Source: Archaeoglobales archaeon (lineage in GTDB: Archaea; Halobacteriota; Archaeoglobi; Archaeoglobales; Archaeoglobaceae). From it: a stretch of 24,116 nt of DNA. This document shows, one piece after another, positions 68 to 24,116 of this stretch. The DNA lies in assembly GCA_003662985.1 (NCBI GenBank), contig QMZD01000002.1:1-24116 (forward strand), written 5' to 3'. The notes under the pieces were generated by a model, which ran no database searches, was not told where the DNA came from, and was given only the letters and a program-made list of their open reading frames with translations. The position numbers and the translations under genes are program-made. Positions within the stretch are counted from its first letter, which is position 1; every line of letters begins with the position of its first letter.

Positions 68-613
68 CTACTCTCCAGCCAACCGATCGTAAATAAGTCT
101 GCCATTGACAATTCTTGCTTCCTTCGAGATTTTATGCTCAACCTTCCGATCGTTAAGGATGTGAATGACTTTCCATCCTTTCATAGCCAGGTAATCCGAG
201 ATAAACTTCCTATGACACCTCCAATAAAGCTTTTCGGCGCACATTATGGCAGAGGGTCTCAAAACTGCGATTTCTTGAAGTTCTTCGATCGCCGTTTTGA
301 ATTCTTCGGTAAGCATGTAGTCAGCGTAATTCCTGAAGCCCTCACTTTTTATTGCCTTGTTGGGAGAATCATCCATTATCTTCTTCCTGTAACCCCCTAA
401 AGTGGGAAACCAGTAATACTCGATTCCCGATTCTGAAAGAATCTGCCTGAGATACTCCCCTTTGAAGTGGGGAAATTTCGAGGTTGGAAACCTCCTAACA
501 TCTATCAGGATTTCAATCTCGTTTCTGATAAGCAGTTCAACAAATTCCTCTGCCTTTCTGTTGGAGTGGCCGATCGTGAATATTCTTTTTATTTCTTTTC
601 CCTCTGCCTCCAT
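68..613 (-). CDS. DUF488 family protein
   Basis: A 181-residue protein of the DUF488 family (PF04343), whose biochemical role is not established. The family signature is complete: an N-terminal IFTIGHSNR strand-loop (residues about 11-19), IDVRRFPTSKFPHF (about 37-50), GIEYYWFPTLGG (about 63-74), and the C-terminal AIMCAEKLYWRCHR segment (about 122-135) with two conserved cysteines and IS after it. Length is normal for the family and the frame is intact. The start at 613 is the first ATG before the TIGHS strand. It has no clear Shine-Dalgarno, but two TATA-like boxes lie just upstream. The gene follows the PGF-CTERM gene by 60 nt in the same direction, so it may be read through from that operon or from its own promoter. 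A degenerate copy of this gene lies at 9374-9489, behind the other giant gene. Family assignment is firm; function is unknown. Confidence 0.93.
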   Translation of the reverse strand: MEAEGKEIKRIFTIGHSNRKAEEFVELLIRNEIEILIDVRRFPTSKFPHFKGEYLRQILSESGIEYYWFPTLGGYRKKIMDDSPNKAIKSEGFRNYADYMLTEEFKTAIEELQEIAVLRPSAIMCAEKLYWRCHRKFISDYLAMKGWKVIHILNDRKVEHKISKEARIVNGRLIYDRLAGE

Positions 614-673: not shown

Positions 674-1987
674 TTATCTTGTTCTTCTCAAGGGTATTGC
701 CACTAACATCACCAATGCCACTAAAATTCCCGTCAGAGCGGTGAGAGATTCAAAACCCGGAATCCTCGGAACTGATTCCGGTTGCTCAGTGGATGTTGAG
801 ATTGGAGTTGGAGTTGTTGGAGTTGGAGTTTGCAGGACTGGCTTTTCTGGTTGGATACTTTTTGCTGCTAAGACATAGATTCCGCTTTTATTAGACATAA
901 AACTTAAAGCAATTTCAGAATCACTTGTATTGTAGTAATCAGACGTCCTTTCAATTGTTTCCTCACCTAACCGATAAAAGGCAAGGGTTGATACATTAAT
1001 TTGCTTGGATAATTCTTTAATTTCTTCATCGGATAGATTTGATTCCATATAAATGTACCCGGCCTCGGTATAGACATCAGGTATTACCGTTGCATATATC
1101 GAATCGCTAAGCATGACCAATCCTTCAGGCAACGAATTCAATCTCACGATTGACAACTGAAATTCCTCGCCAGAAACGTTGAGGTTTTTAAGAGAATAGA
1201 GAGATCCATGAGATGCCTGATCTCGGATAAAAACTCCCTTCTCTGCGATACTCCCAGAAACTATGAATCCGTATTCGGAAAAAGTGGAAAGAAACGCACT
1301 ATCTTCGCTATCTTCTCCATCTCCTCTATCTTCTCTTCCTACAAACACTACATCTTTTACTCTATTTGCCATACCACCGGAAAGCTTAACACCTTTCTGA
1401 AATCCTTGGAGGATGAGGTTGGAGAGCAAGATTTTTCTTGAGGCCGAAACTTCAATTCCCACTTCATCTCCCTCCAGAAAGCTGTCCTTGAGCTTTATAG
1501 AGGTGGAATGTTCCACCGTTACACCTACTGCACATCCTTTGATTTCCAACCTTTGAAGGGTAATATTCATACTTTCGGTTATCTTTATGGCTTCCATATT
1601 GTCTTGGAAGACGCAGTTCTTAACATCCAAATCACCAGAATATAAAATCTCCAGCCCCGTTGATCCGTTGATGATGCGCATACCTTCAATCACAACATTC
1701 GGCGTAGAGATAACCTGAATTGTAGGAAGCAATCGGATTTTAGGCTCAAGAGTTGTTTTCTCACCTCCTACAATATTTACAGACTTTTCTATCTTCAAAT
1801 TCTCACGATAAGTTCCCGGAGCTATCAAAATCGTATCTCCCTCTTTCGAGGCGTTGATTGCATCCTGAATGTTGGAAAAATCACATTCCTCGCACACTTG
1901 AATTGCGTTTGCGTTAGCAGATGACGCTAACAGAGCAAGTACGAGAAGTATAGAGAATATCACTAGGGCTTTTTTTAAAGATCCCAT
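674..1987 (-). CDS. Secreted NosD-like beta-helix protein with PGF-CTERM anchor
   Basis: A 437-residue surface protein. Residues about 1-27 form a signal peptide (basic MGSLKKA, then a Leu/Ala-rich core ending SANANA). Residues about 28-215 are a right-handed parallel beta-helix of the NosD/PbH1 type, opening with NIQDAINASKEGDTILIAPG and continuing in short rungs such as GMRIINGSTGLEIL. Residues about 235-385 are a beta-rich domain of unknown family ending in SGIYVLAAK. A Pro/Thr linker (PTPTTPTPISTST) leads to PGFESLTALTG, a hydrophobic helix and a terminal RRTR: a PGF-CTERM signal, known to be cut and lipid-anchored by archaeosortase ArtA. Its ATG overlaps the stop of the 2395-residue gene upstream (TAATG), with GGTG at 1996-1999 as ribosome site, so the two are translationally coupled. 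The ligand is unknown. The protein may anchor or cap its unanchored upstream partner (inference). Confidence 0.9.
   Translation of the reverse strand: MGSLKKALVIFSILLVLALLASSANANAIQVCEECDFSNIQDAINASKEGDTILIAPGTYRENLKIEKSVNIVGGEKTTLEPKIRLLPTIQVISTPNVVIEGMRIINGSTGLEILYSGDLDVKNCVFQDNMEAIKITESMNITLQRLEIKGCAVGVTVEHSTSIKLKDSFLEGDEVGIEVSASRKILLSNLILQGFQKGVKLSGGMANRVKDVVFVGREDRGDGEDSEDSAFLSTFSEYGFIVSGSIAEKGVFIRDQASHGSLYSLKNLNVSGEEFQLSIVRLNSLPEGLVMLSDSIYATVIPDVYTEAGYIYMESNLSDEEIKELSKQINVSTLAFYRLGEETIERTSDYYNTSDSEIALSFMSNKSGIYVLAAKSIQPEKPVLQTPTPTTPTPISTSTEQPESVPRIPGFESLTALTGILVALVMLVAIPLRRTR
677..760 (-). other. PGF-CTERM sorting signal (coding)
   Basis: The last 28 codons of the 437-residue protein encode PGFE (P410-G411-F412), a Leu/Val/Ala membrane segment and an Arg-rich tail. 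This tripartite pattern follows a Thr/Pro linker, as is typical for archaeosortase substrates. It is the only such signal among the three surface proteins here. Confidence 0.88.
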
Positions 1988-1999
1988 TACCTTTTCACC
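1985..1999 (-). promoter_or_regulatory. TAATG coupling site with GGTG ribosome site
   Basis: The stop codon TAA of the 2395-residue gene shares its last base with the ATG of the PGF-CTERM gene (TAATG on the minus strand, 1985-1989). GGTG lies 8 nt before that ATG, inside the upstream coding sequence, and matches the archaeal anti-Shine-Dalgarno. This supports the chosen start and translational coupling. Confidence 0.75.
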
Positions 2000-4900
2000 A
2001 CCTTGATCTCAATATGACCGCTTATCTCCTGTCTCACGGATTTGGAGTTACTTCTCGAACTGCATGAGTAAGAGCGAGTGGAGGAGAAGTCTCTACTGCT
2101 TTCATGATGATAATCTCCCACAACCTCCTGCCATCTATCTTTACCTGTTTTTTTGAGAATTAGGAGACCTGGTTTCACTTCGTAGTAGGGTACGGAGACT
2201 CTCTGCTTCTCAGCATAACCGGGATAAGAGCAACTAGCACCATCTCGAGGATTTGTTCCTGTATCACCATCATAAATGCAAACGTCGACAAAAGTGCTCG
2301 TTCCTTCTCCGAGAGATGAAGTAGAAACGTCTGTTTCAGTTCCTTTCATCAAAAATACTGGCCACTGAATGGGATCTATTGCCAACACCAAGTCTCCGTT
2401 ACTAGTCTCCCACAAGAGCCAAGTTCTTTCATTGGAGACTCTCGATGAAAGGGAAGTATCCTCTACCTTCACATGGCTACTCCCAGAGATACCACTGTTG
2501 CCACTGCAGCCATCGGTGTAACTTCCGCTATGAGTTCTAGAGTAGCTACTCTGGTATTTGTAAGCGTAACTGGCTGTAATTCTCTCTTTTCCTGTGCTTT
2601 CCTTCCAGTAAGTTTTTGATGTGAAGTGGATGGAAGAACGTGCAGACATCGTCCACTCCGCATCAGACGAGCCTGAATCCGCTGAATTGTAACATTCCTC
2701 CCCTATAGGACAGCAGAGATGCGGACAGTTCGATGTGGCAGAGGTTGTTCCGGATTCCTGATATAGAGAATTTCTTGTCCACGTGATGAACAGGACGAAC
2801 TCTTTTTCCTTAACCTCGATGAAAGCCTCATCCCTCGGAGCTTCTGTATATCCAAGTCCTTGATATACTGCTGGTATCTTTACCAAACCTTCTTTCTTGC
2901 CTGCAACGAATTTAATTGTCGCTCTACCATTTTCACCGGTTATCGGGTTGTTGTGAGCATCAATAATGCCTAAAGGGAATACCTTTCCATCTAACAAAGC
3001 AAACTTCTCTATCAAGATCATCTTGTCAGCTAGGGGTGTCCTCTTACCGCCCAGCTCCTCTTTGTAGACGAAAATATGCAAGAGTGTTTGTTGTTTTGGT
3101 AGTAATTCGTCCTTCTCGGGCTTTATCTCAATTCCAATTCCTGCTATCTTAACCATCGCTAATCTGTGGATTTTCTTGCCACCTCTCGCCTTTGCAAACA
3201 CTTCTATCTTATCCACACCAGCTCTAACGCCTTTGGATTGCATGAGGAAGTATTCTGCCTTAGCGACTCCTAAAGCGTCGGTTGTCGAGAAAACGTAACC
3301 GTAATCGCCCTTCCCCTCCGCTTTAACATAACCTCGATCGGTGACCTCTTTGAAGTAAACCTTCGCTCCTTCGATAGCTTTACCTCTGCAGTCCCTTACA
3401 ACTGCTTTGATTACCACTTTATCCTTTCCTTCCTCGAATGTGAGAGTTTCAGGATTAAGTGTTAAAAGCAAAGAGGGATCTCTTGGCGGTTTAGGATTGT
3501 TAACCTCCCACGTTTCGATGATCGATTTCAAATCACCCTGTGAGTTAATCAGATCATTTAAAATTGAGATATCATCACCTCTAGCTGTAACACCACTCAC
3601 CCTAACGACATTATCTACATCGAGAAGCACAAGATTCATCAGGTTCGTGTCTCCAAGCATAACGTAGTTGAATCGAAGGATGTATTCTGCATTAACCATC
3701 TGTCGAATTCTTGATAGATCTGCTTCATCAGGATTCTCGGCCAAGAAATTCTCTTGCTCGAGCAGAGCACTCTTCACATCAACATCACTCGTTATAATCA
3801 CTCCCGGAGACTTCGCCTGAATAAGCTCCTTAACCTTAATTGAGAAATATCTTTTGAGGGTTTCGGGAGTGTCGCCGGGATAGGTTTGCAGCAATTTTTC
3901 AACCGCCTCATCTCCCAGTTCTACAAAGAGGTATACTTTTGGTTTTGAACATCCCTCTTCCCCTTGGAACAAATCTGCATTTAGTATGCAGTTTCCTTCG
4001 CTTTCACTTAAGTTTAAGACTGAAGTGCCCTGAAGGTTAAGGCTAAAGGATGTTACACCGATGTCAGCAAGATCAATCTCTCCTGTGTAGCGAAGTGGGA
4101 GATTTCTTGTCCTATTTTCGCATCCAAGAGCTAGTTTAACCATAGGGATGTAGTATATCTTTCCATCGCTCGTATAGGCTTCGCCAGCAAGATAGTATTT
4201 ACTTGGAGAAGCTGTTATTGAATAACCAAAGTGGTTTCCTTTAAATTCAAACTCATTAGTTTCGAGGGTATAGGAGTCAATAAGTCTTATTCTGCTTAGG
4301 ACGAAGGGAGAGGTGTCGTTGTCCGTTGCATTTCTTAGATACGTTCCTTTTATTGTTGATATGCCACAAACCTCAAATGTCTGGATGTCCTCTGCAACCA
4401 GCACCCCATCATCGTTGAAAAGGTTGCTTCTTAGGATGTAAGTGCCCTCTTTCCAATTACTGTTTATAAATTCTTCAAAAGCTATGAAGTAATCAGATTC
4501 TATGGGTTTGTATCGCTTACCTTCAGCCTTTTCAGAGAGCGTTGGTAGATGTACGACATTGCTTTCGGGATCCTCCATTGATGACAAAAGTGTCCCGTTT
4601 TGAGTTGAGTTTCCCGTGAGCATGTGTTCTATTATGACTTCCTGTCCATTGCTGAAGATTTCTCTGTTTATGTAGAGCTTTACTGAGGTTTGATTATTGT
4701 AGTAAAGCTTGTCCGTGGAGAGTGAGACCGTATTGAATCCATCTGCTAATCCATCTGCTAATCCATCTGCTATCTTGCCAACCAAAATGTAGGTTCCTGC
4801 TGAAAAGCTGTTGTTGAATTTAATCGAAGATGGCAAACGCCCATAGTAGTTCGTTCTTAAGTAGTATGAATCTATCGGTTTTTTGGTTTCACTCCAGTCT

Positions 4901-7900
4901 GGATAGTAGAGTTTTTTGCCATCCGGGGTTAGAAGGTAGATGTATGCTTTGTAATCTTTGCTTCCATTTCCGTTGATGATTCCGTCTATCTTTAGGTAAG
5001 TTGTCATGGTTTCGTTTTCAGAAATGGAGTTGTCTGAGGTGAATGCCTTTATCTGTGGGAAGCTGAAGGGGAGTGATGGAATTAGGGAGACATTTTTGAT
5101 TTCCCACTGCCTTGTTCCTCTATCCCATGCATTCTCCGAGACGAATGAAATTATGTTTTCCACATCTGGAGTGATGTTTTCCAAGATAGGAATTTCGTAG
5201 GTTTGGTAATTTGAATTTAGTTGGATGGTTGTAACAAGGTTTCCCGAAAGGTTGTTATAGCTCTGGATTCCGTTTCTATGGAATTTGTTGAGGTAGATGT
5301 CTATTTTACCTCCACCCTTTGCTTCAAAGGTCAAGGTATAATCCGTTTTCCTTCCAAAGAAGGAGAAGGCCACGTCATCTGTAAACGAGGTCATAGTTGT
5401 GTTCAATTTAAGCAATTCACCTAAGGTGAGAGGTATTATTTTGAACTTTACCTCTCCATTTCCTTTTATTGCATAGTAATCCTCTCCATTGACCATTATT
5501 CTGTGCTCTCCAAGAGATAACCTTTCGATTTCTACAGTTCCTGCGGTTGCATAAGGCTTCAATGAGATGGCAGTAGGTGAGGAATTATCTACGATATAGG
5601 AAGCTCTTCTCAAAGGATATTGAGAGGTAAAGGCTAGGGTTAGGGATCTTTCGGTATAGGATTTGCTTTTAGGAGTGATTTCAATGCTAAACTGGGGTTC
5701 TTTAACCTCCTCTAAAACTGGGATTCCTCCAGCCCCTGTTCCAGCGGTTCCTCCACCTCCAGTAGTCCCAGAAATAACGTTTATTGAGAAGTTAACTACC
5801 GTGAAGTTGAGATTTCCGGCCGTATCGTTTACGTAGACAATTAACGTGTAATCTCCGTTTGATAAACCTGTTATCGTTGTGTTTGGAGTGAAGGTTACGT
5901 TTGACGCCGAGTTTAAAGAGTACCACCATCCGTCTATATCTGGATCGGGTGAGTGAACTTTTAGATAAACGTAGTTCGCTGAATAGGTCTTGCCTTCTTC
6001 AGGTGAAATTACACCGATGAATGGAGCTGTATAGTCTGGGGTGACGTTTGTGAGGGGTAGATAGTCACCGCCAGCTATGTTTCCGCTTGAGTTGTAGGGC
6101 AGAAGCGTATCTCCTAAACCATCTCCTCCAGCCGTGTCAGCTCCCGTATAATCATGCCAGTAGTTCCCTCCCAAATATGAGCCATTGATTATGTTCGTGC
6201 CTGGAGTTTTCGAGATGTTCCAGAAGTTGTTGCCGTTATCGTAGGCGTTTATGGAGTTGTTGAAGTAGTTATTGTAGATTAGGTTGCTGTTTGAGGAAGA
6301 GAGGTAGATTCCGTATCTCTGACCTCCAATCCAGATTCCTTGCTGCGGGTTCGCTAGGCGAAGGATGTGATTCGTTTGAATCGTGTTCGAATTTGAGTTT
6401 GAAAAGTGGAATCCATATCCGCCCTGGCATGGATTGGTTGTTGGAGGGAGATAGAAGCTCGGCCCATTGTCCGTTATGTTTGAATCTAGAATCGTGTTGT
6501 CGCTAGATTCGTCGAGTTTTATTCCGTAGCACCAGTTCTTTTCCACCTTGGTGTTTTCGATGGTAGTATTTTCAGATCCCCCGAGATACAAGCCTGAACC
6601 GTAATTGGAGTTGCCATTATCAGAGAAATCTGAGTTAGTGATTGTGACATTGCTGGAATAGTAAATCGCCAGTCCTGTAAGGTAATTGGTAAAAGCGTTT
6701 GTTGAATCAATGGTAGAATCAGAAGTGTTGTAAAGGATTATCCCATGTGAGTTTGAGAATAAGCCGATGTTTCTGACTATCACATTTTTGCAGTTAATGC
6801 AAGCGAAAAATCCTATCGGTGGTTGAGCAGATTGGTCGAATATTGCATTAGAGGCGTTTTTGATGTAGTAAATTGCACCACCGCTGACGTTGTTTGACGT
6901 ATCTATGTCAAAATCGAAGTCCCGGAATTGGGGAGTAGTGTAAACTTCCCCTGGGTCAAAATAGAAATCGTAGGTGTTACCGAGCATTCTATTCTCTCTG
7001 AGCGTTAAGTTGGTTGAATAGGTGTAAGGAGATGATGAGTCGATTTTGATTCCCGCATACTTGAATTTTACAGTGTTGTTGTAGATTAGGCAGTCGCTCG
7101 CATGGTTTATTTTTATTCCTGCATCTTCATCTTGGACAGGTGTATCCCCTACAATCAGGTTGTTTTGTATAACGCAGCCTCCCGAGTCAAACCTTATCCC
7201 TCCATAGCCCGAGAATGTGTTGTTGGAAACAGTATTTCCCTCAGCATATCTCTTTATCCACACTGCCGGCATAGAAGATGTAAAATTCTTCACGAATGTG
7301 TTGTCATAGATCAAATTGTTACCAGCGTTTCTATAACTCAAACCTTCAATTGTTATGTAGCTGTTGTAAGTTCCCTCTGCAAAAGTATTGAGAGTTATGT
7401 TGTTGTAACTTGAACCCTCAATTCGGAGTTGAGATGCTATGAAGGTGTTCTCTGCTATCAGATTTCTATCTGAACCATGTAGATAGCCCTTTACGAGGAA
7501 TATTCCGCTTCCATTGAATGTATTGTTCCTTATGATGTTATCTGTCGACTCATGATCGGTTATCTGGATACAACTCATACCGGAAACCAGATAGGTTGTA
7601 TATCCCACCTTTATACCAGCCTCAGGTATTGAGCCGAGAGGGCATGGGCCAGGATAGGCTGAATTGTTGATGTAGAAACCTTGAACAACGTTACCATTGG
7701 AGGCGAGGGTGAAACCACTACCTTTCTGGTTGGCATCTATGACGGGATTACCAATCCCCGTTATGTTCAGGGTTTTATTTACAAAAACGTTCTCAACGTA
7801 GGTTCCATTACAAACGATAATCGTGTCTCCATCCATCGAAACATTTACAGCATCCTGAACTTTAGTGAAATTTGCCGGGCAGTCAGCCAGATCATCATCA

Positions 7901-9174
7901 ACATACCACGTTTTTGGATCTCTAAGGGTAGTGAAATTTCTGATTGAGCTGTTGGAGTAAAGGCTTGTGTTGTCTGCCTTATACGAGAAAGCTGAGTAGT
8001 AGTAGGTTGTGTTTGGAGATAAACCGGATAAAGTTATGGAAGGATTCTGCGTGTAGTTATCCCAATCTCGCTCAGGATACATAGTTTCGCCGCCAGATAG
8101 GATTACAGACTCATTCATATAGAGAGTCTGGGTATTGTTATCCCATTCAGACCATTCCGGTGACGATAGATCACTATTGAGGCTGTAGAGAACCCTGTTA
8201 GCTGATAAAACATTCGTATACCAGCTAATTGTTATGCTGGTATTCGTTAGATCGCTCTCCTGGATGTTGCTTATGACCGGAGGTTGTTCTGTCTCGAAAA
8301 GCATCGGATAGTAATCTAAAGGCAAATTCGAACTTTCACCTTCACCACACCAGAGGGTGGAGACCTGATATGGCATATCACCGATTCCATCGTTGTTTGA
8401 ATCGATTCCTGAATAATCATCCCAGTAGTTGCCGGTGTAATTCGAGTAAACATCGCCTTGGTAGCTGTACTGCCTTATTTCAGTCGAGTTCCAATTGTTA
8501 TCCCCGCAATCGATCGCGTTGTAGGTGTTGTTGATAAACCGATTGAGGTAGAAAACGTTTGTAGAAAAATCAGCCTGAATGCCGGTATCGCTATCCCTTA
8601 TCGTGTTGTTGTATATCGTGTTGTTGTAAACGGCGTTGGTATTGGCGTAGAATTCAATTCCAACAGTGGTGTTATGGATCGTGTTATCGAAAATCACAGC
8701 ATAGCCCGAATCTTCAAGCTGAATACCATCGTAGGTATTGTAAATTACATTGTTTGAGATATTGGCATGATCGGAAGGATTCAGCGAGGCGGGATTTGGT
8801 TCTACATCAATCCCATCATCATTGCTTTTCGTTGAGCCACCGGTGATAGTAAATCCAGATATGGTAACATAACTTGCATGAACCTCAATAACATCCTCGC
8901 TCGTGTCGTTTGCTTGGATAATCGTATCCATTGGATTCTGAGAGAACGATTTGAGCGTTACCGAGATGTTGATATCAATATTCTCCAAATATGTTCCACT
9001 GCAAACGACGATCGTGTCTCCATCGCTAGCATTTTTCAAGGCTGATGTGATAGTTGGAAAGTAAACATCCCCAGATGTACATGGAGTTGTTTTATTGACT
9101 ACAAGAACAGCATCAGCACTAGCTGACAGCATTACCACTACACAGACTATTAGAACTACTTTTACGACATTCAT
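1987..9174 (-). CDS. Giant secreted beta-helix / Ig-like multidomain surface protein
   Basis: A 2395-residue protein. A signal peptide (about 1-22, ending SASADA) leads to: beta-helix 1 (about 23-295) closing with a DSNNDGIGD loop; an FN3-like domain (about 297-415); beta-helix 2 (about 420-1045); an Ig-like domain (about 1045-1125); a Gly/Thr linker (TTGGGGTAGTGAGG); then a string of Ig-like or jelly-roll beta domains (about 1157-1740), including an ADGL triplet repeat. A segment at about 1742-1895 recalls CsgG/TolB-N-type domains. Two Big-1/invasin-like domains follow (about 1899-2122), and then a Ser/Cys-rich tail of unknown type (about 2125-2395). N-x-S/T sequons are very frequent. There is no C-terminal membrane helix or CTERM signal, so it is either released or held by a partner. 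GGAGGAAGGT precedes the ATG at 9174. Transcription is from the 9228-9318 block. It is probably a structural, adhesive or glycan-binding protein; no catalytic site was recognised. Confidence 0.9.
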   Translation of the reverse strand: MNVVKVVLIVCVVVMLSASADAVLVVNKTTPCTSGDVYFPTITSALKNASDGDTIVVCSGTYLENIDINISVTLKSFSQNPMDTIIQANDTSEDVIEVHASYVTISGFTITGGSTKSNDDGIDVEPNPASLNPSDHANISNNVIYNTYDGIQLEDSGYAVIFDNTIHNTTVGIEFYANTNAVYNNTIYNNTIRDSDTGIQADFSTNVFYLNRFINNTYNAIDCGDNNWNSTEIRQYSYQGDVYSNYTGNYWDDYSGIDSNNDGIGDMPYQVSTLWCGEGESSNLPLDYYPMLFETEQPPVISNIQESDLTNTSITISWYTNVLSANRVLYSLNSDLSSPEWSEWDNNTQTLYMNESVILSGGETMYPERDWDNYTQNPSITLSGLSPNTTYYYSAFSYKADNTSLYSNSSIRNFTTLRDPKTWYVDDDLADCPANFTKVQDAVNVSMDGDTIIVCNGTYVENVFVNKTLNITGIGNPVIDANQKGSGFTLASNGNVVQGFYINNSAYPGPCPLGSIPEAGIKVGYTTYLVSGMSCIQITDHESTDNIIRNNTFNGSGIFLVKGYLHGSDRNLIAENTFIASQLRIEGSSYNNITLNTFAEGTYNSYITIEGLSYRNAGNNLIYDNTFVKNFTSSMPAVWIKRYAEGNTVSNNTFSGYGGIRFDSGGCVIQNNLIVGDTPVQDEDAGIKINHASDCLIYNNTVKFKYAGIKIDSSSPYTYSTNLTLRENRMLGNTYDFYFDPGEVYTTPQFRDFDFDIDTSNNVSGGAIYYIKNASNAIFDQSAQPPIGFFACINCKNVIVRNIGLFSNSHGIILYNTSDSTIDSTNAFTNYLTGLAIYYSSNVTITNSDFSDNGNSNYGSGLYLGGSENTTIENTKVEKNWCYGIKLDESSDNTILDSNITDNGPSFYLPPTTNPCQGGYGFHFSNSNSNTIQTNHILRLANPQQGIWIGGQRYGIYLSSSNSNLIYNNYFNNSINAYDNGNNFWNISKTPGTNIINGSYLGGNYWHDYTGADTAGGDGLGDTLLPYNSSGNIAGGDYLPLTNVTPDYTAPFIGVISPEEGKTYSANYVYLKVHSPDPDIDGWWYSLNSASNVTFTPNTTITGLSNGDYTLIVYVNDTAGNLNFTVVNFSINVISGTTGGGGTAGTGAGGIPVLEEVKEPQFSIEITPKSKSYTERSLTLAFTSQYPLRRASYIVDNSSPTAISLKPYATAGTVEIERLSLGEHRIMVNGEDYYAIKGNGEVKFKIIPLTLGELLKLNTTMTSFTDDVAFSFFGRKTDYTLTFEAKGGGKIDIYLNKFHRNGIQSYNNLSGNLVTTIQLNSNYQTYEIPILENITPDVENIISFVSENAWDRGTRQWEIKNVSLIPSLPFSFPQIKAFTSDNSISENETMTTYLKIDGIINGNGSKDYKAYIYLLTPDGKKLYYPDWSETKKPIDSYYLRTNYYGRLPSSIKFNNSFSAGTYILVGKIADGLADGLADGFNTVSLSTDKLYYNNQTSVKLYINREIFSNGQEVIIEHMLTGNSTQNGTLLSSMEDPESNVVHLPTLSEKAEGKRYKPIESDYFIAFEEFINSNWKEGTYILRSNLFNDDGVLVAEDIQTFEVCGISTIKGTYLRNATDNDTSPFVLSRIRLIDSYTLETNEFEFKGNHFGYSITASPSKYYLAGEAYTSDGKIYYIPMVKLALGCENRTRNLPLRYTGEIDLADIGVTSFSLNLQGTSVLNLSESEGNCILNADLFQGEEGCSKPKVYLFVELGDEAVEKLLQTYPGDTPETLKRYFSIKVKELIQAKSPGVIITSDVDVKSALLEQENFLAENPDEADLSRIRQMVNAEYILRFNYVMLGDTNLMNLVLLDVDNVVRVSGVTARGDDISILNDLINSQGDLKSIIETWEVNNPKPPRDPSLLLTLNPETLTFEEGKDKVVIKAVVRDCRGKAIEGAKVYFKEVTDRGYVKAEGKGDYGYVFSTTDALGVAKAEYFLMQSKGVRAGVDKIEVFAKARGGKKIHRLAMVKIAGIGIEIKPEKDELLPKQQTLLHIFVYKEELGGKRTPLADKMILIEKFALLDGKVFPLGIIDAHNNPITGENGRATIKFVAGKKEGLVKIPAVYQGLGYTEAPRDEAFIEVKEKEFVLFITWTRNSLYQESGTTSATSNCPHLCCPIGEECYNSADSGSSDAEWTMSARSSIHFTSKTYWKESTGKERITASYAYKYQSSYSRTHSGSYTDGCSGNSGISGSSHVKVEDTSLSSRVSNERTWLLWETSNGDLVLAIDPIQWPVFLMKGTETDVSTSSLGEGTSTFVDVCIYDGDTGTNPRDGASCSYPGYAEKQRVSVPYYEVKPGLLILKKTGKDRWQEVVGDYHHESSRDFSSTRSYSCSSRSNSKSVRQEISGHIEIKVVKR
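4736..4771 (-). repeat. 12-bp perfect tandem repeat, three units, in frame
   Basis: Three exact copies of aatccatctgct (plus strand) at 4736-4747, 4748-4759 and 4760-4771. On the coding strand they add a four-residue ADGL-type repeat (KIADGLADGLADGF) at about residue 1470 of the 2395-residue protein. The unit is a multiple of three, so copy number can change without a frameshift. Confidence 0.95.
8377..8433 (-). repeat. 57-nt exact repeat, copy 1 (shared with the 4639-residue gene)
   Basis: This segment is base-for-base identical to 21206-21262 over 57 nt. It encodes the beta-helix closing motif [19 protein letters not shown]. Identity at every third codon position is beyond what protein constraint requires and points to recent duplication or gene conversion between the two giant genes. 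Confidence 0.93.
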
Positions 9175-9180
9175 TAATTA

Positions 9181-9193
9181 ACCTTCCTCCTTT
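9181..9193 (-). promoter_or_regulatory. Ribosome binding site of the 2395-residue gene
   Basis: On the minus strand AAAGGAGGAAGGT lies 6 nt before the ATG at 9174, a strong purine-rich Shine-Dalgarno match. It fixes the start and gives an ordinary short leader downstream of the promoter block at 9228-9318. Confidence 0.75.
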
Positions 9194-9227
9194 ACGAATT
9201 TCTTCGATGAATCAGACTTTGTTTGAA

Positions 9228-9318
9228 AGTAGAATAGACTAGGTTGTCTGGTAAGAACAATTCTTTAGAGGAAATTTAAATTTTTCGTTGTAAATTTTAT
9301 TTTAATAATTATTATTAG
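9228..9318 (-). promoter_or_regulatory. Promoter/leader block, copy A (drives the 2395-residue gene)
   Basis: A 91-bp block that aligns without gaps to 23738-23828, with about 15 mismatches nearly all in one short stretch. On the minus strand it holds, in order, ATAATAATTAT, an invariant ACGAAAAATTTAAATTT core (BRE-like ACGAAAA followed by TATA TTTAAATT), a divergent spacer of about 20 nt, and the invariant 18-mer AACCTAGTCTATTCTACT. Expected initiation about 25 nt below the TATA box falls near 9250, just before the invariant 18-mer, which would then sit at the 5' end of the mRNA. Conservation of core and leader with a free spacer is the pattern expected of a functional promoter. Confidence 0.72.
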
Positions 9319-9373
9319 CTGATGAATAACCCAACGAGGGTTACGGCAAAATATGTTTTATCTTAAACAACCT

Positions 9374-9489
9374 TCATATTTCAAACCTAACATTCTGCTC
9401 TCCAACCAAAAGATTGTAAATTAGCTTGCCGTCTAGTGTATCCAGTTCCAGCCTCAGTGGCCGATCGTGTATATTGTTTTTGTCTCCAT
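9374..9489 (-). pseudogene. Internally deleted DUF488 gene remnant
   Basis: From the ATG at 9489 the minus strand reads METKTIYTIGH and then a stop (9454-9456), matching the first residues of the intact DUF488 protein (IKRIFTIGHS). The upstream bases also match (AAAGGATAAGTTAA-ATGGAG against AAAAAGATAAATTAG-ATGGAG). Directly after it, in another frame, 9374-9440 encodes DGKLIYNLLVGEQ, matching the family member's C terminus NGRLIYDRLAGE, with clear DNA similarity (CTCTCCAACCAA against CTCTCCAGCCAA on the plus strand). About 140 central codons are gone and the two ends are out of frame. It lies downstream of the 4639-residue gene, the same relative place as the intact copy behind the other giant gene. 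An ORF of 65 codons that spans it is judged spurious. Confidence 0.82.
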
Positions 9490-9559
9490 TTAACTTATCC
9501 TTTGAATTAAAGGTATAACTTTGTTTTCGGTTTGCTATCTTTGAAAGATTCCAATGGGA

Positions 9560-9598
9560 GGGGAAAAACAATAAAAATTAAAAAGTTAAATAAAAAAT
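9560..9598 (-). terminator. Oligo-T terminator after the 4639-residue gene
   Basis: Immediately after the TAA at 9599-9601 the minus strand carries a series of T runs: TTTTTT, TTTAACTTTTT, AATTTTTATTG, TTTTT. Repeated T tracts without a needed hairpin are the usual archaeal intrinsic terminator. This would separate the giant gene from the promoter of the next unit. Confidence 0.65.
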
Positions 9599-12500
9599 TT
9601 AGGCGCCACCCTTGCCTATTCTACCTTTGTAAGCTAAAACCGCAATTAATATTGCAATGATGGCGATTATTGGCAAAGCGAGTTGCCAGAGCTGCAAAGG
9701 TTGCGGTGGAGTTGGTGTGGGTGTAGGCTTGGGTGTTGGGGTTGGTGTAGGTATTGAGATCGGAGATGGGACAGGAGATGGGGCCGGATATGGAGTAGGT
9801 ATTTCAGATGGTGTCGGGGTTGGAGTTGGTGTAGGCTTGGGTGTTGGAGTTGGGAAGGGTGTGTAGTGTGGAACTCTTATCTGCGTAGGTACAGGAGTTG
9901 GCGTGGGCTGTTTCTTTATGCAAGCATCTCCTGGATAGGATTCAAACTGGCAGGCCTGGTAGTAATTCGTCTGGTAAGTATCTTCCCTCTCCTCCACAAG
10001 TGAGAGATCATTGTTGTATATTTTAAGATATGATAAGTAGTAATTTCCGTTCTCCTCACTCTTTCCGATATCTTCTCCTCTGAATTCGAGAGTTATAAGT
10101 TGAGTTCCTGTATCAAGCGGCGCAGATTTATACAAATTGGTTATGAAGCTCCCACCAAGGCTGCCGTAAATAATATAATCTCCTTCCTGCTCGACATTCA
10201 ATTTCAGCTTAACAACTAAGTAATCGTACAATCCGTTGTTATCTGTGTCCAAGCCATAATCTTCCACAACCTCTAAAAGATGTACCGGCTTGCCCTGGAA
10301 ATCTGAGGAGTTGTAAGAGGCTGTGGTTGTGTCCTCTGCCTTCCCTATCAAACCCGGATTGTGAGAGTAGAGTTTAACTCCAACCACATCGTAAGGCCCG
10401 TCTTCACAACTGTTCCTAATCTCAATTCCGCTGAAATTCAAATAGACAATCTGATTTCCTGAATCTAAATGCATAGTGTTAGATGTGTGTGTTATCCTCT
10501 GGTTGCCTTTATAGAGAGACCCAGTTATCGTATAATCGCCCGCTTTAGAGAGGTTTACTGAGAATCCTATCCCGAGATAATCTATTAACCTATCGTTATT
10601 GGAGTCGACCGTTTCCTCGCTCACCTTAATCATTCGTGTAACTACGTTTTTGGGGTGCGGGAAAACAGCGACATTGTTTGTTTCACCAATCTCTTCAATC
10701 GTGTTGTTATAGTCAGCAACAACAAAGAAAATGTATTTTCCTGCTGGAAGGATTGCGTTAAACGTGACGTCAGCGGATTGATTCGGTGAGATGGAATACA
10801 GACTTGTTTTATCAATTATGGCACTCTCGTTGATAACAGAGGTTCCATTAACAACCGTATACGGATTGTTCTTAAACAACGCCACCTCAACATTCTCCGC
10901 AATTACACTTCCTACGTTCCTCACTTTAACATCTATTGTCGCATTATCGCCGAAATCACTTGAAACAGAGATTTCTTCCCCTCTGACTTCCAGATCTGGG
11001 CCAATAAGCACAGGAATTAATTCATGGTTGTTCGTTTCATCTCCTTCAGCAATCTCGTTGTTTTCATCGAGCATAAGATGAATATAGTAGTAACCAGCTG
11101 GAAGCCCACTAACATCCCATACCGCTGTGAGATCTTCAGTTTCGGAAATTTCGAGGCTCCTAACTGTTTGAGAGTCTATAAGCACCTTATCCTTGTTGAA
11201 GAAAGGAGAAGTACTGTAATAGAAATTAACAGTTGATTCATTCGCCTTGTAATGCCCGCGATTGATTACTGTTGTTGTAATTGAGATTTTATCGAACTCG
11301 TATAGAATATGCATAATTCTATGGGCCAAGTCTGGCATGAGGATAGGCTTAGAGGCTATGTTGTTGGTTTCATTCCCCTCTGCTATACTATCGAGCGGAT
11401 CTATCTCCACATAGATAATATGTTGTCTTCCATCAGATGGAACTGTCCAGTTTAAAGTCACCTCCTTGGTTTCACTACCTCTAATGAAATCTATTATTTT
11501 CGTTCTAATTATCCTTCCATTATCGGTGAACCTCACAAGCACATTGTCCAAGGCTAGATCTCCAACATTGTGTACTTTTACAGCTATCGTTATGTCCTTG
11601 CCCGGTTCTGGTGTACTTGAGAAACCAATATCTCCACCATCAATCTCCAAATCGACGATGATCTTATGCTTCAAAAGATAAATGCTCGCATTCTCAAACT
11701 TCGTAGTAGTTACATTGAAGGTCTCATTACCAGCGGTTACAGTTTCGTTCTGCAGTTTGATCTCCTTTTTAATATAAACATTCAGGATCTCATTCTTAGA
11801 GTTGATTATGGGAGAGAAGCTCTGTTCAAGGTCGAAATCATTCGTTAAGGTGTTGCTCATGCTCCAGCTGTCATGCGCTTTATCAAAAACAGAATAAAAT
11901 ATGTTCAAATCGCCATCCATGCGTGATTGCCATAGGATGACAGGGTTGTTTGCCGGATTCCTAGCGATCTCCAATCCTTCAACCTTTCCCTCCACGGTTA
12001 TCGACTCTGGCTCTGACCAGCTTCCATCGTAAATTGCATACAGAATTACATTCTCAGTTTTGTTCTCAGTTGAATTGTCCTTCACCCAAACAAGCATAAT
12101 TTTATCGCCAAAATAAAGCACGTCAGGAAGTCTGTCTTCCCTTCCATCGTTCGTGAATCTTGCCTTTGCAGACCAACCCGTTCCATCGAAAATTGAGTAG
12201 AATACTTCTTTATCAGAAATCGTGGATGAGTTGCCATCCATATCCTCTGTCCATACCGCAATCGCTGAATTGTTGTGGAAATCGAAATTGAGGTTGTCCG
12301 TTAGCCTTAAATCTGAGAATGCTTTCTTTTCCGGAGAGAAGGCTGTTCCATTCCATATGCTGTAGTAGTAGTCGTTTTCAAGGGGGTGATTTTCTGTTGC
12401 ATTATTTCCGATGTAAACCTCATTCCTCGGATTCTTAATCCACATTACCATCGCTTCATAACCATCGGCAACAATCTTCGGCTCATAGTCGAAGTATGAA

Positions 12501-15500
12501 TCATTCGTGAGTAAGGCTGGAGTTGTCCAGTATCCAGAAGAATAAAGTGAGTAAGCGATCTCTGCATGCTTTATAACCTCACTGAAGTTGCCCGGATTTT
12601 CCGGCAAGCTTTCATTATTCAACTTCGTCCAAACTGCTATGAATCGATTGTCTAAGGTGTATGCAAGATCAGGCTTGAAATCAGATGTGGTGTCATTGAC
12701 AATTGGTTTCGGCTCGCTCCATCCACCGCTTTCGTTAAAGGTGTAATATATGTCGAATGCCCGAGTTAGATTCTTAGATGGATTATCAGCTGAATAAACA
12801 ATCATCTCCTCGTTATCAATCCCGAGGGCAAGCTTCGGGTCGGCATCAGGATATGTGTTTTTCACGATAATGTATTCCTGAGTGGGGGAACTGTGGATTA
12901 ACTCTCCAGCCAGAGTATTGTACTCTGCAGTTAGATAATCTCTATCAGAAAGTCTCCAGTACTCCGGTTTCGAAGCTGGTTCAGTCCAGCAATTTCCATT
13001 CCAAAGATCGCATATAAACTTTCTGCCCCAGTGATCTGAGTAGAACAAGAAGTGCCAATCCACCCTTATCAAGACTCCGGCGCGAAGGGAAGTGATTGAG
13101 AAGTCGTAATTCCTATCAAGCTCAGCACCCATTCCAACGTTCGCTCCTACCGTAACCTCAACACTTGCTATGACAACACTGGCACCACCACTAGCTTCAC
13201 CCCAAATATCCACGTCAGCGGTTGCATTGTAGAACTTCAGTTCACCGCTCTCCGTCCTTTGCACAATTCCAAAGCTCACTCTTACATCCATTGTTACCCC
13301 AGCCTTAATGACCACAAAATCCCATTCAGTCAGGGGGATATCCTGAACGTCAACGATCAGATTCCAGTCAACTTCATCCAAGTATAAAGTATTACTAGAG
13401 GGTTTGTATATTGCAATTCTTTGAGCGCAGATTCCGGCAAGGGTTTGCTCTCCAAAGGTGTAATAAATTCCTCCACCATAACTCATTCTCCCCCTTCCTG
13501 TAAAAGAGCTGAATGTAGCGTTTTCTTCAAAGAAGATTCCACATGCTCCTGGATTTGAGCAGAACGTACCCTCCTGTGGCGTATGTTTGCCGGATGGTAT
13601 GTAAGTAGTTACACCGTAATGCCCGCCTACCCATGGTACTCCTGAAGGAACATCAAAGCCTGGTATTTTGTCAATAACCTCCATGATCGGCTCGATTATA
13701 CCGATAATATCCAAGGCAGAGTCTGTAATTTTTGTTACGTCTATAATCACATCCGTAACCACCAACACCGTATGAACTCCAGTCAAAACATCTCCAACTT
13801 CATCAATAACATCTTTAACATCATCTGGAAGCGGAATATCGCCTCTATATTCAATACCAGAGCCATTGAAATAGCAGATGTAAGCTTTATTATCTTTATA
13901 AAATACAACATCACCCCTCGATTTATCGTAGGAGACACCTACACCCTGATATACAAATCTGAGTAAACTATCCTTATATGCCGCTGAAAGGGATATGGAT
14001 CCGTCGTCATAATTGAAGGAGACCTCGTAATCAGACGTGTTGAAGCTCGCTTCTATATCAACTCCATCGCTGTAGTTAAAGCCGACTTCACCTTTATCAT
14101 ACTCTGCTTCAATTTCGATTTCACCGCTATATCTTATGCTTCCAGCGTAATCATCCAAATCGATAGAGACTCCCACATCAGGTGTGTCCAGTGAGAGCCT
14201 GTGTGCATCAAAATCCCAATAGAAAGTATAACCACTATATACAAATTCCACATGATCCTCAAATACGTAGATTTTGGTTACCTTTTTCAGATCGACGTAG
14301 TTCTGGCCCTCAATGTACTTCTCACCTCTGACAACTTGCGGAAACCTCGGCAAGCCTTTTGGCTGGAGTCTGTGAAAGAGTGTCTCAGCTTTAACTGTCG
14401 TCGTTTGTTCAGAAACCGCCTCAATCAAAAACATGCTAGCTCCAAGAGGCAAGTCTTCCATGTTGAATCCTTCATGGGTCGTTTGAGTGTATTTATACGA
14501 GGGATCATCAGGATAGTAATACCAAACACATTCCGGATCGGGATGTCCCTGAATGCAGAACTTCTTCGTTATCGCTTCTTGAGTTGGAGGCGTTACTGAT
14601 ACCCTCAGTGGATCTAGTTCTCCATCCCATCCAACGCTAACCTCCAATCCATTTTCAATACCGTATCCTTTCAAGAAGTACTTAGTGTACATCGGATTTA
14701 TTTCGAGAATATCCGGATACCTTGCAAGGCTGTTAAAGGTTCTGTGAGTTCTCACTGCTCTTTCTGAATAGGGGTCATTCGTCTCAGCCTGTATAGTTGC
14801 ATTTCCAACTTGATTGAATGCATAGTCAAAGATTGCAGTTCCATTCTCATTTGTGAATGCAATCGGTGGGAAGATCACTCCGTTTTCCTCCTCTGAAATC
14901 TCGGAGAAGTTAACTTGCATACTTGAAACTGAGATCGGATTTCCGTTGCAGTCAGTTATTTGAGCAAAGCCTACGAGGTGTTGGTTTTCATACGATATTG
15001 CTCCCATCTCGAGTCCAAAGCAAGTGAGAGGAGGTGAGGTGAGAGGATACATGTCCTGATTATTTCCTCCGGTTATGTTATAGGGACTATCGCATATTCC
15101 ATTGTTGTCCGAATCATAACATCCCTCAGAGGGTTCATCGTAATCACTCCAGTAATTGCCTCTTGAGTCATTGTACCAAAGGTAGAGGGATCTTCCGTCA
15201 TCCAATGCCGAATATTCGTTATTTAAGAAGCTATTGTTCTCAACCACTATAGATTCCATAGCTTCAGCTGGAAGTAAAGCTGCTGTATGGTTAAGCCTAA
15301 CTCCTCTATAATTCTCATTTAGAATGTTCTGAGAAATGTTAACAAAAGTGCAGTCCACCAGACTTATACCTGCATCGCTGTACGAGGCTGTATTTTTGAT
15401 AATTTTGTTGAAATTGGAGTTTTTCATATGAATTGCATCGTTTTTACAGTTTATTACACTATTATCCTCAATTGTGTTGCCATCGGAGTGATTGAGATAA

Positions 15501-18500
15501 ATCCCATGGCTTGTAGCATTGAAGAGGTAGTTACCCTTAACTAAATTGTCTCTGGATTCGTTCAACCAGATAAGATACCATCCCTGGACGATGTTGTTGT
15601 TTGTGATGGTTGTATTTGTAACTTCATCGAGCAGCGTTATTCCAGCTTCTTTGTTGTAGAGAAGGTTGTTTTCAGTTATGTTGTTGTAATCTGATGAGAA
15701 AATGGCAATGCCGTAATAGCTGCCAAATACGGAATTGTTCATTATAAGGTTGTTGTTTGCTTGATAGTCAACATATATTCCCGCCCCTGAGCTTGGATAC
15801 AATTCGTTGTTTCTGATAACGTTGTTCCGCGATTCCAAGACTGAGATGCCCGCATATGACGAGTTGACCAAATAATTATCCTCTATCACACTATTCATAG
15901 AATAATCGAATATGATACCAGTTTGGAGATAATTGCCTATTCTATTATTCCTAACTCTAACCTCATCGGAATTGGAAACATTTATTCCATGCCCAGATGA
16001 TGAGAGTTCGTTTTCTTCTACCGTAATGTTCTCAGAGTTGAGGATTGTTACAATATTCCCCCCATATCTTGCAGAGAAATTGTTTCTTAAAATCAGTGAG
16101 TTCTTGATATTGCTTAGATAAAGCCCACGATAGGAATACATTGGAGAGATGTTATTTGAAGCTATAAGGACCGAGTCACCTCCCGAAATATATATTCCTG
16201 TTACTACAGTATCTCCTACGATGGTGTTGTTCGTAATGAGGCTATCACTTAATCCACTAAACTCAATTGCGACATAAAATGTTGTATTAAAGTAATTCTC
16301 ACTTATGACGTTTCCAGTGTTATATGTTTCTATTCCTATCGACAGACCCCATCCTTGGGATAAGAACCGGTTATTTGAGATATTGGAATTGTAAAGATAA
16401 CCTGTGCGTATCCCATAACCGTTGTCTCTAAAAATGCAGTTGGAGATTTCGATATTATCCATGACTCCCCAGTATCCGAATATACCGTCAGTTGATGCGC
16501 CCTCTATCGTAATTCCAGTTATGTTTACTTTGTTTCTCAAAGAAAATACCTTATCACCCATAGCATGAACAATCGTATCGACTGGATTTCTCGAGAAGGA
16601 TGCGATTTTCTCCAAATTCTTGTCTATTGTGACACTCTCATTGTATTGCCCTGGACAGATGATAATCGAGTCTCCGCTGTTTGCAGCATCTACAGCTTCA
16701 CTTATTGTATGATGATGGGTAATACCCTTAACACAAATACCTCTGTCCGGCTTGTAAACCACCCTTATCGGCTTGTTTGTCCCCATTATGGCATAAGTTC
16801 CACTGGAATTTTGAAGATCAACGTGTGTGAAGACGGCCTTATCAGCGGGATAAACAACATTTGGCCAGGAGTTAACGGGAAGTCTCCAGTTTCCATCCAC
16901 GAAGTTGTAGAGTGCTAGAGTATCTTCAATAACCGAAGTTATATCTCTGTCTTCATAACTCAAAGTTAAATCAAGATATCCACCCTCACACACCGGATTG
17001 AGTTCCAGATAGACTCCAATATTTTGAATGTACTCAAGGCTGTCCAGAATGGGTTCTGCCTCAGCTATAGCATAGCAGTTTCCAACAAAACTAGCTTTAA
17101 TATCATTTAGAGATACATTCCAGAAGAGTTCCCTTGATAAACTCTGAATTGAGACAAAATCCGATGCGTTAAGATGAATCGTTGTGAAGGCATTATCTTC
17201 AGTATTTTTGAGCTTTATACCTACCTTCGAGTCAATAACATTAATGTTCTCGAATTCATTATGAGAACTATTCTGGACTTTGATGCCCGTATTGGAGTTT
17301 GCTATCTCTACATCTCCAAATTCATTGTAATTCGAGGAGGTAAGATTAATCGCATCGAAGGTGTCGGAGGAAGCAATATTATGGAAATCACAATTAAAAG
17401 AATTTTCGAGGTTGATCGAGCTGTATTCGTGCGTGGACTCCAGATCTGACACCGATTGTCTCAAACTACCATTAACATATATCCCGTTTTTATTTCCAGA
17501 AGTCCTTATAGTTGAAAAAGAACTCTCATACCCGCCGATATCCTTAATCCCATACACGTTGTTCTCAGAGGTAAGATCGTAAACATTAGCGAAGGAGACA
17601 TCATACAAAAACAGCCCTGAGCCTCCCTTTGAGTTATTTGAGAGTACAAGATTTCTCAGTGTGACTTGAGTAGAGTTAATTATCGTTATTTTTCCGAGAT
17701 TACTAACATTTTCAGCCACGAGGGTACGGTTTGCTATCCAAATATTCTTCGCATTTACATAATGGAGATATGGTTCTCCGTTAACAGTATTTCCAATTAT
17801 ATCATTGTAATAGCTCTCGATCCCATTGAAGAAGATTCCCGACCCCATAGGATTAATTATTGAGTTGGAGATCAAAGTAAAGGTATTTTTAACGTTGCTG
17901 GAGAGTCTTATTCCATTCTCCTGGGGATTAATAATAGTGTTATTCGCGATCAGTAAATGTCCTGGGGATGTGTCTTTGGATGTTAAAGATTTTACCGCTA
18001 TGGCTATTCCGTTGTCTGAGAATGTGTTATTATCGATCACATTACCTACGCTAACAGAAGGATATCCAAAATAATAGTAGATGCCGTAGGTTGAGTGGAG
18101 AATCTCATTATTACTTATCAAATTTCCTGTGCTTGGTTCAATAAAAGCGATTGCTTCAATCCCCTTTTCGGATGTATCTATCAGATTGTCCAAGATTGTT
18201 ATATTCTTAGATATATACAGGGAAATACCCTTGCTCGAGAGTTCAATAACATTATTGCTTATAGTGATGTTGTTGCATTCCTGTTTAAAGAAAACGGGAG
18301 GTGAGAGATCAATCCCGATTTTGTGATGATAGAGTGAATTTCCATCGATGATGCTGTCCGTCACATTGACGAAAGTTATCCCATAGCGATATCCAGTGAA
18401 GGGTGTGAATGGAGTGAACCCTCCAATTCCTCCCGAGCCTTCAGAATTCAATGCATTATCCCAATCAAGGGTATTATTTCTAATTACAATGTTAGTGGCA

Positions 18501-23518: not shown

Positions 23519-23522
23519 GTTA

Positions 23523-23705
23523 TCAACTCCTACCATTCCGATAGGTTAACAAACCGTTAAACACAGCATTTGGTTTAATTGCTCGGTTTGCTAGATGATT
23601 ATTCAGCTCAGTACACCCCGAATTAGGAAAAGAGAACAATTCAAGGACTACAAGAGTATAGAGTTCACTCTCTCGAGGCTCCATGCCACTAATACAAGGA
23701 GACAT
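23523..23705 (-). CDS. Possible 60-residue leader ORF upstream of the giant gene
   Basis: An unrecognised 60-residue frame ([20 protein letters not shown] at its start, LLTYRNGRS at its end). A GGGGGT ribosome-like site lies 3 nt before its ATG, and that ATG lies about 33 nt below the promoter block. Its TGA ends 4 nt before the giant gene's ATG, so the two would be translationally coupled. Against it, the composition is unlike a typical folded protein, no family is recognised, and the equivalent leader of the 2395-residue gene has no such ORF. It may instead be inserted non-coding leader sequence or the tail of a lost mobile element. Without this stretch there is no other gene between 23519 and 23852. 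Confidence 0.25.
23527..23532 (-). promoter_or_regulatory. Ribosome binding site that decides the giant gene start
   Basis: TAGGAG on the minus strand lies 8 nt before the ATG at 23518. The alternative in-frame ATG at 23536 lies upstream of this site and has no comparable purine run before it. The shorter start also gives a cleaner signal peptide (MSLGLKY followed by a hydrophobic core). Confidence 0.6.
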
Positions 23706-23737
23706 TTTACCCCCTTTTAATCAGGCGTTGTTATCAG

Positions 23738-23828
23738 AGTAGAATAGACTAGGTTGCCTGATAAGAAAAGTCAACAATTAAAAATTTAAATTTTTCGTTG
23801 TAAATTTTATCTTGATAATTATTATTAG
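23738..23828 (-). promoter_or_regulatory. Promoter/leader block, copy B (drives the 4639-residue gene)
   Basis: This is the second copy of the 91-bp block at 9228-9318, ungapped. The BRE/TATA core and the 18-mer AACCTAGTCTATTCTACT (23739-23756) are unchanged, while most of the roughly 15 differences lie in the spacer between them. Expected initiation is near 23760. That leaves an mRNA leader of about 240 nt before the giant gene, against about 75 nt for copy A. The extra length is the stretch 23523-23705. Confidence 0.72.
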
Positions 23829-23852: not shown

Positions 23853-24116
23853 CTATAACTTCCCCTTATAATATTTTGTCGCAGGACATCCCAAACACCT
23901 TTCATGCTCGTATCTCTTACAGGTACCGCAATGAACACCACATGGAGCATATTCAAGAGTTTTTTCCGGTACAACGTTGATGTCCAAGAAGCCATCATAC
24001 TTTATTTCTTGAATTGGGTAAAGTTCGAATCTTCTAACACCTTCCTGGCTTCTGAGAGAACATTTTTCCAAACTTACACTCTCTAAGGAATGGTAATCTT
24101 CAGCAAAAATCAATGC
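23853..24116 (-). CDS. C-terminal part of a Cys-rich protein (cut by window edge)
   Basis: The frame runs open to the right edge, so only the last 87 residues are seen. A TTG at 24113 could be read as a start, but continuation beyond the window is more likely. The C terminus carries CGVHCGTCKRY and, after a short gap, CLGC, giving the pattern C-x3-C-x2-C-x8-C-x2-C. This is reminiscent of Cys-rich DUF3795-like or small iron-sulfur/zinc modules, followed by a short basic tail (KYYKGKL). Family and function are not assigned. Its stop lies only about 25 nt before promoter block B, and no clear terminator is seen between them. Confidence 0.55.
   Translation of the reverse strand, partial: ALIFAEDYHSLESVSLEKCSLRSQEGVRRFELYPIQEIKYDGFLDINVVPEKTLEYAPCGVHCGTCKRYEHERCLGCPATKYYKGKL

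Follow-up and report, generated by a model that had tools for sequence, protein, structure and literature searches.

The window (the whole stretch of DNA analysed here, 24,116 nucleotides) is one entire contig of a fragmented assembly (2.15 Mb in 383 contigs, 80.7% complete), and its principal genes all lie on the minus strand. Two of these encode giant proteins, which we infer from their signal-peptide-like starts and domain types to be surface proteins. The features are as follows.

68-613, minus strand: DUF488 gene
674-1987, minus strand: gene for a 437-aa NosD-type protein, second gene of a presumed operon
1987-9174, minus strand: gene for a 2395-aa NosD/beta-helix giant (likely surface) protein
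9186-9193, minus strand: Shine-Dalgarno-like AAAGGAGG of the 2395-aa gene, picked by eye
9210-9252, minus strand: inverted-repeat leader, copy A (5' arm 9246-9252; 28-nt loop 9218-9245, holding an 18-mer; 3' arm 9210-9217)
9275-9287, minus strand: BRE/TATA CGAAAAATTTAAA, copy A
9303-9317, minus strand: 15-bp dyad TAATAAT-A-ATTATTA, copy A, a perfect dyad 15 bp upstream of CGAAA
9398-9486, minus strand: probable DUF488 gene remnant between the giants, with scraps of the start (TIGH) and end (DGKLIYNLLVGE)
9599-23536, minus strand: gene for a 4645-aa NosD/CARDB giant (likely surface) protein; the coordinates are those of the longest ORF, and the likely start is at 23518
23523-23705, minus strand: 60-codon upstream ORF with Shine-Dalgarno-like AAAGGGGG, ending 4 nt ahead of the giant's likely ATG (23516-23518)
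23719-23762, minus strand: inverted-repeat leader, copy B (5' arm 23756-23762; 29-nt loop 23727-23755; 3' arm 23719-23726)
23785-23797, minus strand: BRE/TATA CGAAAAATTTAAA, copy B
23813-23827, minus strand: 15-bp dyad TAATAAT-A-ATTATCA, copy B, 6/7 pairs
23853-24116, minus strand: 3' portion of a gene for an Lrp/AsnC-type regulator, truncated at the contig end, 92% to residues 104-190 of a protein in the related genome G004

The regulator fragment at 23853-24116 had no family match of its own in family searches; it is the G004 counterpart protein that matches Lrp/AsnC models. G004 carries two close copies of this regulator (87%; G004:C49:4158-4724 and G004:C29:2021-2590), and the window's own assembly (G000) has two partial copies, one on contig C74 and one at the right end of the window. 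The same genome also holds a further open-ended NosD-type giant frame of 3961 aa (G000:C18, L128), the start and promoter of which lie beyond the contig end.

Upstream of each giant NosD/beta-helix gene lies one copy of a shared repeat, also on the minus strand (copy A, 9210-9317; copy B, 23719-23827). In a BLASTN search of the whole 2.15-Mb, 80.7%-complete assembly, copy B matched copy A at 82% over ~110 bp (E = 4e-24), and there was no third copy, all remaining matches having E values of 0.02 or worse. The 18-mer occurred twice genome-wide with up to 2 mismatches allowed; a shuffled window held 0.07 matches on average with up to 3 mismatches allowed. The initial annotation had aligned 9228-9318 with 23738-23828 over 91 bp without gaps, and we recovered the same coordinates and the same gap-free alignment. 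It had also placed the differences in the spacer after the TATA box, and this is where they concentrate: the copies share the core CGAAAAATTTAAATTT and match at 13/13 positions of the BRE/TATA and 11/11 of the loop core, but at only 6/16 in the 16 nt after the TATA. The dyad matches at 14/15 positions and the flanks at only 4/20 and 3/10. The limits of the unit needed correction, since the true unit extends further at its 3' end, where an inverted repeat has its second arm (9210-9217 and 23719-23726); the arm was missed because it varies. Copy B ends ~200 nt upstream of the likely start of its gene, with the 60-codon ORF between. The initial annotation did not include the 15-bp dyad, the upstream ORF, the inverted repeat that encloses the 18-mer, or the duplication of the block together with its gene.

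Distribution and conservation of the leader

The promoter half of the block was found by BLASTN ahead of a NosD giant in G004 (98% over 47 bp) and in G002 (86% over 50 bp), two genomes placed in the same genus. A first covariance model (R1), built from the first four leaders with the helix supplied, was used to search 99 genomes and returned three more leaders (G072, G002_C41 and G023), which were thus detected with a model already containing the helix. A second model (R2), built from all seven sequences, recovered the same seven leaders at 51 to 68 bits, and none further, in 5 of 55 Archaeoglobaceae genomes: two each in G000 and G002 and one each in G004, G023 and G072, from three genera. With laxer filters, the best other R2 match in nine genomes scored 18.6 bits. 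Across 392 genomes of the phylum (taken from a larger group, scored with stricter filters and including the five leader-bearing genomes), the best other match reached 23.1 bits, in G130. The G072 assembly has an estimated contamination of 9%, and the other six genomes of its genus are without the leader.

On the neighbouring genes, all seven leaders are linked to NosD-type giants. A relative of the window's NosD proteins lies within 1.5 kb at 6 of the 7 leader loci, and at the seventh, in G072, the leader is parted from the giant by an insertion. As a comparison, 35 loci with weak or stray hits (20 weak R1 hits, 11 weak R2 hits, 3 of them falling on places already represented, G130, pattern hits in G013 and G007, and G058) were searched with the three NosD proteins of the window, and none had a relative at an E value of 1e-5. 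The 20 weak R1 hits (E values of 0.039 and above, 12 of them viewed) were left out of R2, as were the weak R2 hits from the nine-genome and 392-genome searches.

The genes behind the leaders vary in how completely they are assembled. In G004, G023 and G002 (C41) the giant is followed by a NosD protein of about 400 to 450 aa; the G002 C41 giant is in two frames in its assembly, and one G002 leader precedes a gene that exits its contig. In G072, the giant and a similar partial gene behind it lie on contig C406 and the leader on contig C309. The insertion there carries a transposase-like ORF (L114:67-708, with the leader at L114:845-898; L127), and its other end is visible on the contig of the giant gene. 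The 4645-aa giant behind copy B is related to the leader-associated giants in parts only. The giant's C-terminal module was found in 4 of 40 genomes, all four leader-bearing, the match in G023 amounting to 47 of 304 residues; the 31 further genomes of the family, apart from G072, were covered by the leader model only.

Between G000 and G004, the giants agree at 57% of aligned residues (a gapped BLASTP alignment gives 52%) and at 60% of nucleotides, and the third positions of 1307 identical residues are 45% identical, whereas a 47-bp promoter segment is identical at 46/47 positions. Among six leaders, mean pairwise identity rises from 29% immediately before the dyad to 81% within it, and is 74% in the next 15 bp, 90% in the BRE/TATA, 51% in the spacer, 70% in the first arm, 81% in the loop core, 88% in the second arm, and 38% beyond it. 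The element thus has clear borders, since identity falls at the left edge of the dyad and past the 3' arm. By this comparison, the cassette is maintained while the gene behind it has diverged heavily.

Promoter, upstream dyad and upstream reading frames

CGAAA and a TTAA-centred box are present in all six leaders with upstream DNA, identical in three and as variants in three. (The seventh, G002_C41, begins at a contig end.) The distance from the end of the 8-nt TATA box to the first arm is 22 to 24 nt in 6/6 leaders, or 30 to 32 nt from the TATA start. In Thermococcus kodakarensis, the part of the study available to us gives a median of 23 bp from TATA to transcription start (PMC4247193). The close agreement of these spacings suggests that the repeat and the mRNA begin at about the same nucleotide, with transcription predicted to start at or within a few nucleotides of the repeat. 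By sequence and spacing in all six leaders, this fits an archaeal BRE/TATA core promoter. The reading of the block as promoter plus 5' leader, already made in the initial annotation, is now supported by conservation over five genomes and three genera, by the fixed geometry and by the association with one kind of gene. A scan of 9100-9800 for sigma-70 promoters and terminators gave results near chance level; the promoter type scanned for is not archaeal.

The 15-bp dyad lies exactly 15 bp before CGAAA in 6/6 leaders with upstream DNA. It changes symmetrically between species, and this makes it a candidate site for a dimeric regulator. Copy A has a perfect dyad, the G002 dyad (TAATTAT-A-ATAATTA) is changed on both sides, the G023 dyad (TAGTAAT-C-ATGACTA) keeps 6/7 pairs, and the remaining leaders have 5 or 6 of 7. 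Among 63 columns, the dyad is the best-scoring centre, with 37 of 42 complementary cells and 2 further pair types; none of 2000 column shuffles reached 37/42 (mean maximum, 26.5). From this symmetry we infer that the dyad may be bound by a dimeric transcription factor.

Archaeal Lrp-type dimers bind imperfect inverted repeats of 13 to 17 bp with an AT-rich centre, according to the part of PMC2995911 that we could consult. The dyad resembles such operators in being an inverted repeat near a promoter, 15 bp long and almost pure AT. The adjacent regulator gene has no relative at an E value of 1e-20 in G002 or G072, two of the five genomes with a leader. At this threshold it has matches in 36 of 55 genomes, some only about 30% identical, and 33 of the genomes with a match are leaderless. 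The adjacent Lrp/AsnC gene is therefore not supported as a dedicated regulator, since its presence and absence over the 55 genomes does not track the leader.

Four of the seven leaders are followed by a short upstream ORF (G000_B, 60 codons; G002_C46, 25; G002_C41, 21; G023, 19), with an ATG after the repeat and a stop 1 to 4 nt before the presumed main start. That start is an ATG in G000_B and, in the other three, a TTG after GGAGG picked by eye. All eight alternative frames hold at least one stop. In dinucleotide shuffles of the ORF bodies with start and end fixed, the chance of an open frame was 0.0088, 0.18, 0.14, and 0.22 (product, 4.7e-5), of which only the first is notable alone. The peptides have no evident common sequence, and the 60-codon ORF of copy B had no Pfam match. 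The ORF is absent in G000_A and G004 and interrupted in G072. The arrangement resembles translational coupling, and the act of translation would then count for more than the peptide made.

Inverted repeat, probable duplication history and proposed regulation

In all seven leaders, arms of 7 to 8 bp and a loop of 28 to 29 nt enclose the 18-mer at the predicted +1, and the loop core AGTCTATTYTR is nearly invariant. RNAalifold arrived at the same 8 pairs when given an alignment made from sequence alone, which had been trimmed around the repeat. Two of the 8 pairs changed on both sides: pair 13-46 is G-C four times, A-U twice, and G-U once, and pair 9-50 is U-A five times, C-G once, and unpaired once. 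In copy A, one arm pair is broken. Overall, 92.9% of cells were paired in the seven rows, three of which were found with the helix-containing model. The helix accounted for 47 of 49 cells, a score reached in 0 of 1000 column shuffles. In 500 letter-dealing shuffles, by comparison, the covariation score was reached in 22, the number of pairs changed on both sides in 113, and the number of pair types in 359. The seven sequences are a small sample from five genomes and are related to one another. Taking the shuffles together, compensatory change in the arms is suggestive, short of proof. On the comparative evidence, the repeat is probably a 5'-terminal mRNA hairpin.

The predicted stability of the hairpins was -4.2 to -11.1 kcal/mol at 37°C and 0 to -3.6 kcal/mol at 65°C, where copy A already had no structure; at 80°C no structure was predicted for 6 of the 7. 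By these predictions, a bare hairpin would hardly hold in a hyperthermophile, so that either some partner would have to bind it or the element would act as DNA.

The second of these possibilities deserves to be weighed. The inverted repeat (+1 to +44) might be a second DNA operator with two half-sites AATCAGGC ~36 bp apart centre to centre, the 18-mer being part of the bound DNA and no RNA hairpin being formed. Helical phasing would demand the loop of 28 to 29 nt that is kept in 7/7 leaders despite internal indels, the RNA fold is weak at high temperature, and archaeal Lrp targets are clusters of imperfect 13- to 17-bp inverted repeats, as described in the accessible part of PMC2995911. However, the conserved loop core is asymmetric, and the repeat is positioned at the predicted mRNA 5' end. 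Further, the four non-Watson-Crick cells of the inner five pairs are all G-U and none A-C, as expected for RNA, a small number to be read alongside the one A-C and one C-A in the outer pairs. We consider a second operator a serious reading and an unlikely one.

We rate as close to an even chance, falling just short of it, that the repeat is a previously undescribed cis-regulatory RNA: a hairpin at or next to mRNA nucleotide 1 with a 28- to 29-nt loop containing AGTCTATTYTR, which would be dedicated to giant beta-helix surface proteins and would act with the upstream operator and the coupled short ORF. Rfam gave no match at the gathering threshold in the window, the one around copy B (E = 0.38) being far below the cut-off. 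A hairpin hiding the Shine-Dalgarno sequence is not favoured, as that sequence lies outside the stem in copies A and B and in G004. Pairing of the copy A loop 'AACCT' with 'AGGTT' near the Shine-Dalgarno sequence, compared by eye, is not kept in the relatives seen.

The gene order in G004 is regulator, leader, giant, second NosD gene, another gene, and a DUF488-like gene (the last assigned by likeness). In the window's genome, it is regulator, leader B, 4645-aa giant, probable DUF488 remnant, leader A, 2395-aa giant, 437-aa gene, and DUF488. The remnant matches 565-595 at 27/31 nt (87%) and gave protein matches to the window's DUF488 protein with E values of 0.005 and 0.010; it is apparently a deletion remnant marking a tandem duplication. 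Duplication of the segment from leader to DUF488 is the most likely explanation of this layout, and there would be two leader copies in the window because the control region was duplicated together with the gene. G002 likewise has two leader-plus-gene copies. Separately, the otherwise divergent giant genes share an 81-bp stretch of 91% identity (8368-8448 versus 21197-21277), which suggests exchange of a beta-helix segment.

Such a history raises the question of whether the shared block is leftover similarity from a recent tandem duplication, containing an ordinary promoter only. The probable DUF488 remnant between the giants and the 81-bp stretch fit this view, and both duplication and exchange probably occurred. 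Even so, other genomes retain these elements where third positions have fallen to 45% identity, and identity stops sharply at the element borders. Comparison across genomes thus largely refutes leftover similarity as the explanation, which we regard as very improbable. A dispersed repeat or mobile-element end is scarcely credible: two copies do share one contig and a transposase-like ORF adjoins the leader in G072, but the counts refute it (two sites in the window's own assembly, as the 18-mer search proposed with the initial annotation also found, and seven leaders in 55 family genomes, all at one kind of gene), and the G072 insertion splits the leader from its gene, with its other end on the gene's contig.

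We think it fairly likely that the block is a cis-regulatory cassette serving a particular kind of operon for giant beta-helix surface proteins in Archaeoglobaceae. A dimeric transcription factor would bind the 15-bp dyad, whose spacing from the BRE/TATA downstream is constant, and transcription would start, given the TATA spacing, at or within a few nucleotides of the inverted repeat. The initial ~44 nt of the message could then fold into a stem with a 28- to 29-nt loop and its AGTCTATTYTR core, a pairing backed by comparison. This 5'-terminal structure would probably be bound by a protein or other ligand and, in the least certain step, might protect the long message from 5' decay or gate ribosome entry. 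Where an upstream ORF is present, its position suggests that ribosomes would translate it first and then reinitiate at the giant gene. Following duplication of the control region with its gene, purifying selection would have kept the two window copies alike, and the two giants should for that reason be co-expressed.

To our knowledge, archaeal control of very large surface proteins has been little studied. The cassette would offer a precise case, in which operator, promoter, and 5' leader stand in a fixed geometry and mark paralogues expected to be co-regulated. Should the leader function at the RNA level, it would count as an archaeal regulatory RNA restricted to this lineage and unmatched in Rfam. 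In bacteria, 5'-terminal mRNA stem-loops of the ompA type protect against 5' decay. Such stem-loops resemble the stem at the predicted 5' end of a very long mRNA here, and differ in that the stem here is weak and its loop long with conserved sequence. Archaeal 5'-3' decay by aCPSF2 is described in the part of PMC3792030 available to us.

Searches of the open-access literature on archaeal leaders, Archaeoglobus NosD, promoters, uORF coupling, Lrp operators, RNA motifs, and mRNA decay listed no description of the element, and the word Archaeoglobus is absent from the main text, as available to us, of a 2010 structured-RNA survey (PMC2864571). The nearest parallel that we found is the promoter and leader of the Methanosarcina S-layer gene slmA1, likewise an archaeal surface-protein gene with a conserved TATA. 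The available part of that study describes three short upstream dyads and a leader of 154 to 159 nt that is >91% identical between two species, with possible RNA structures (PMC3361143). The gene family is different, the same portion of the slmA1 description mentions no +1 inverted repeat or coupled upstream ORF, and the two are likened by description, not sequence.

A similar AT-rich stretch with a CGAAAAATTTAAAT promoter precedes the gene of another protein, one with a signal-peptide-like start, in G011 (L023:1501-1546). The locus is absent from the hits of the inverted-repeat model; it perhaps points to a wider regulon.
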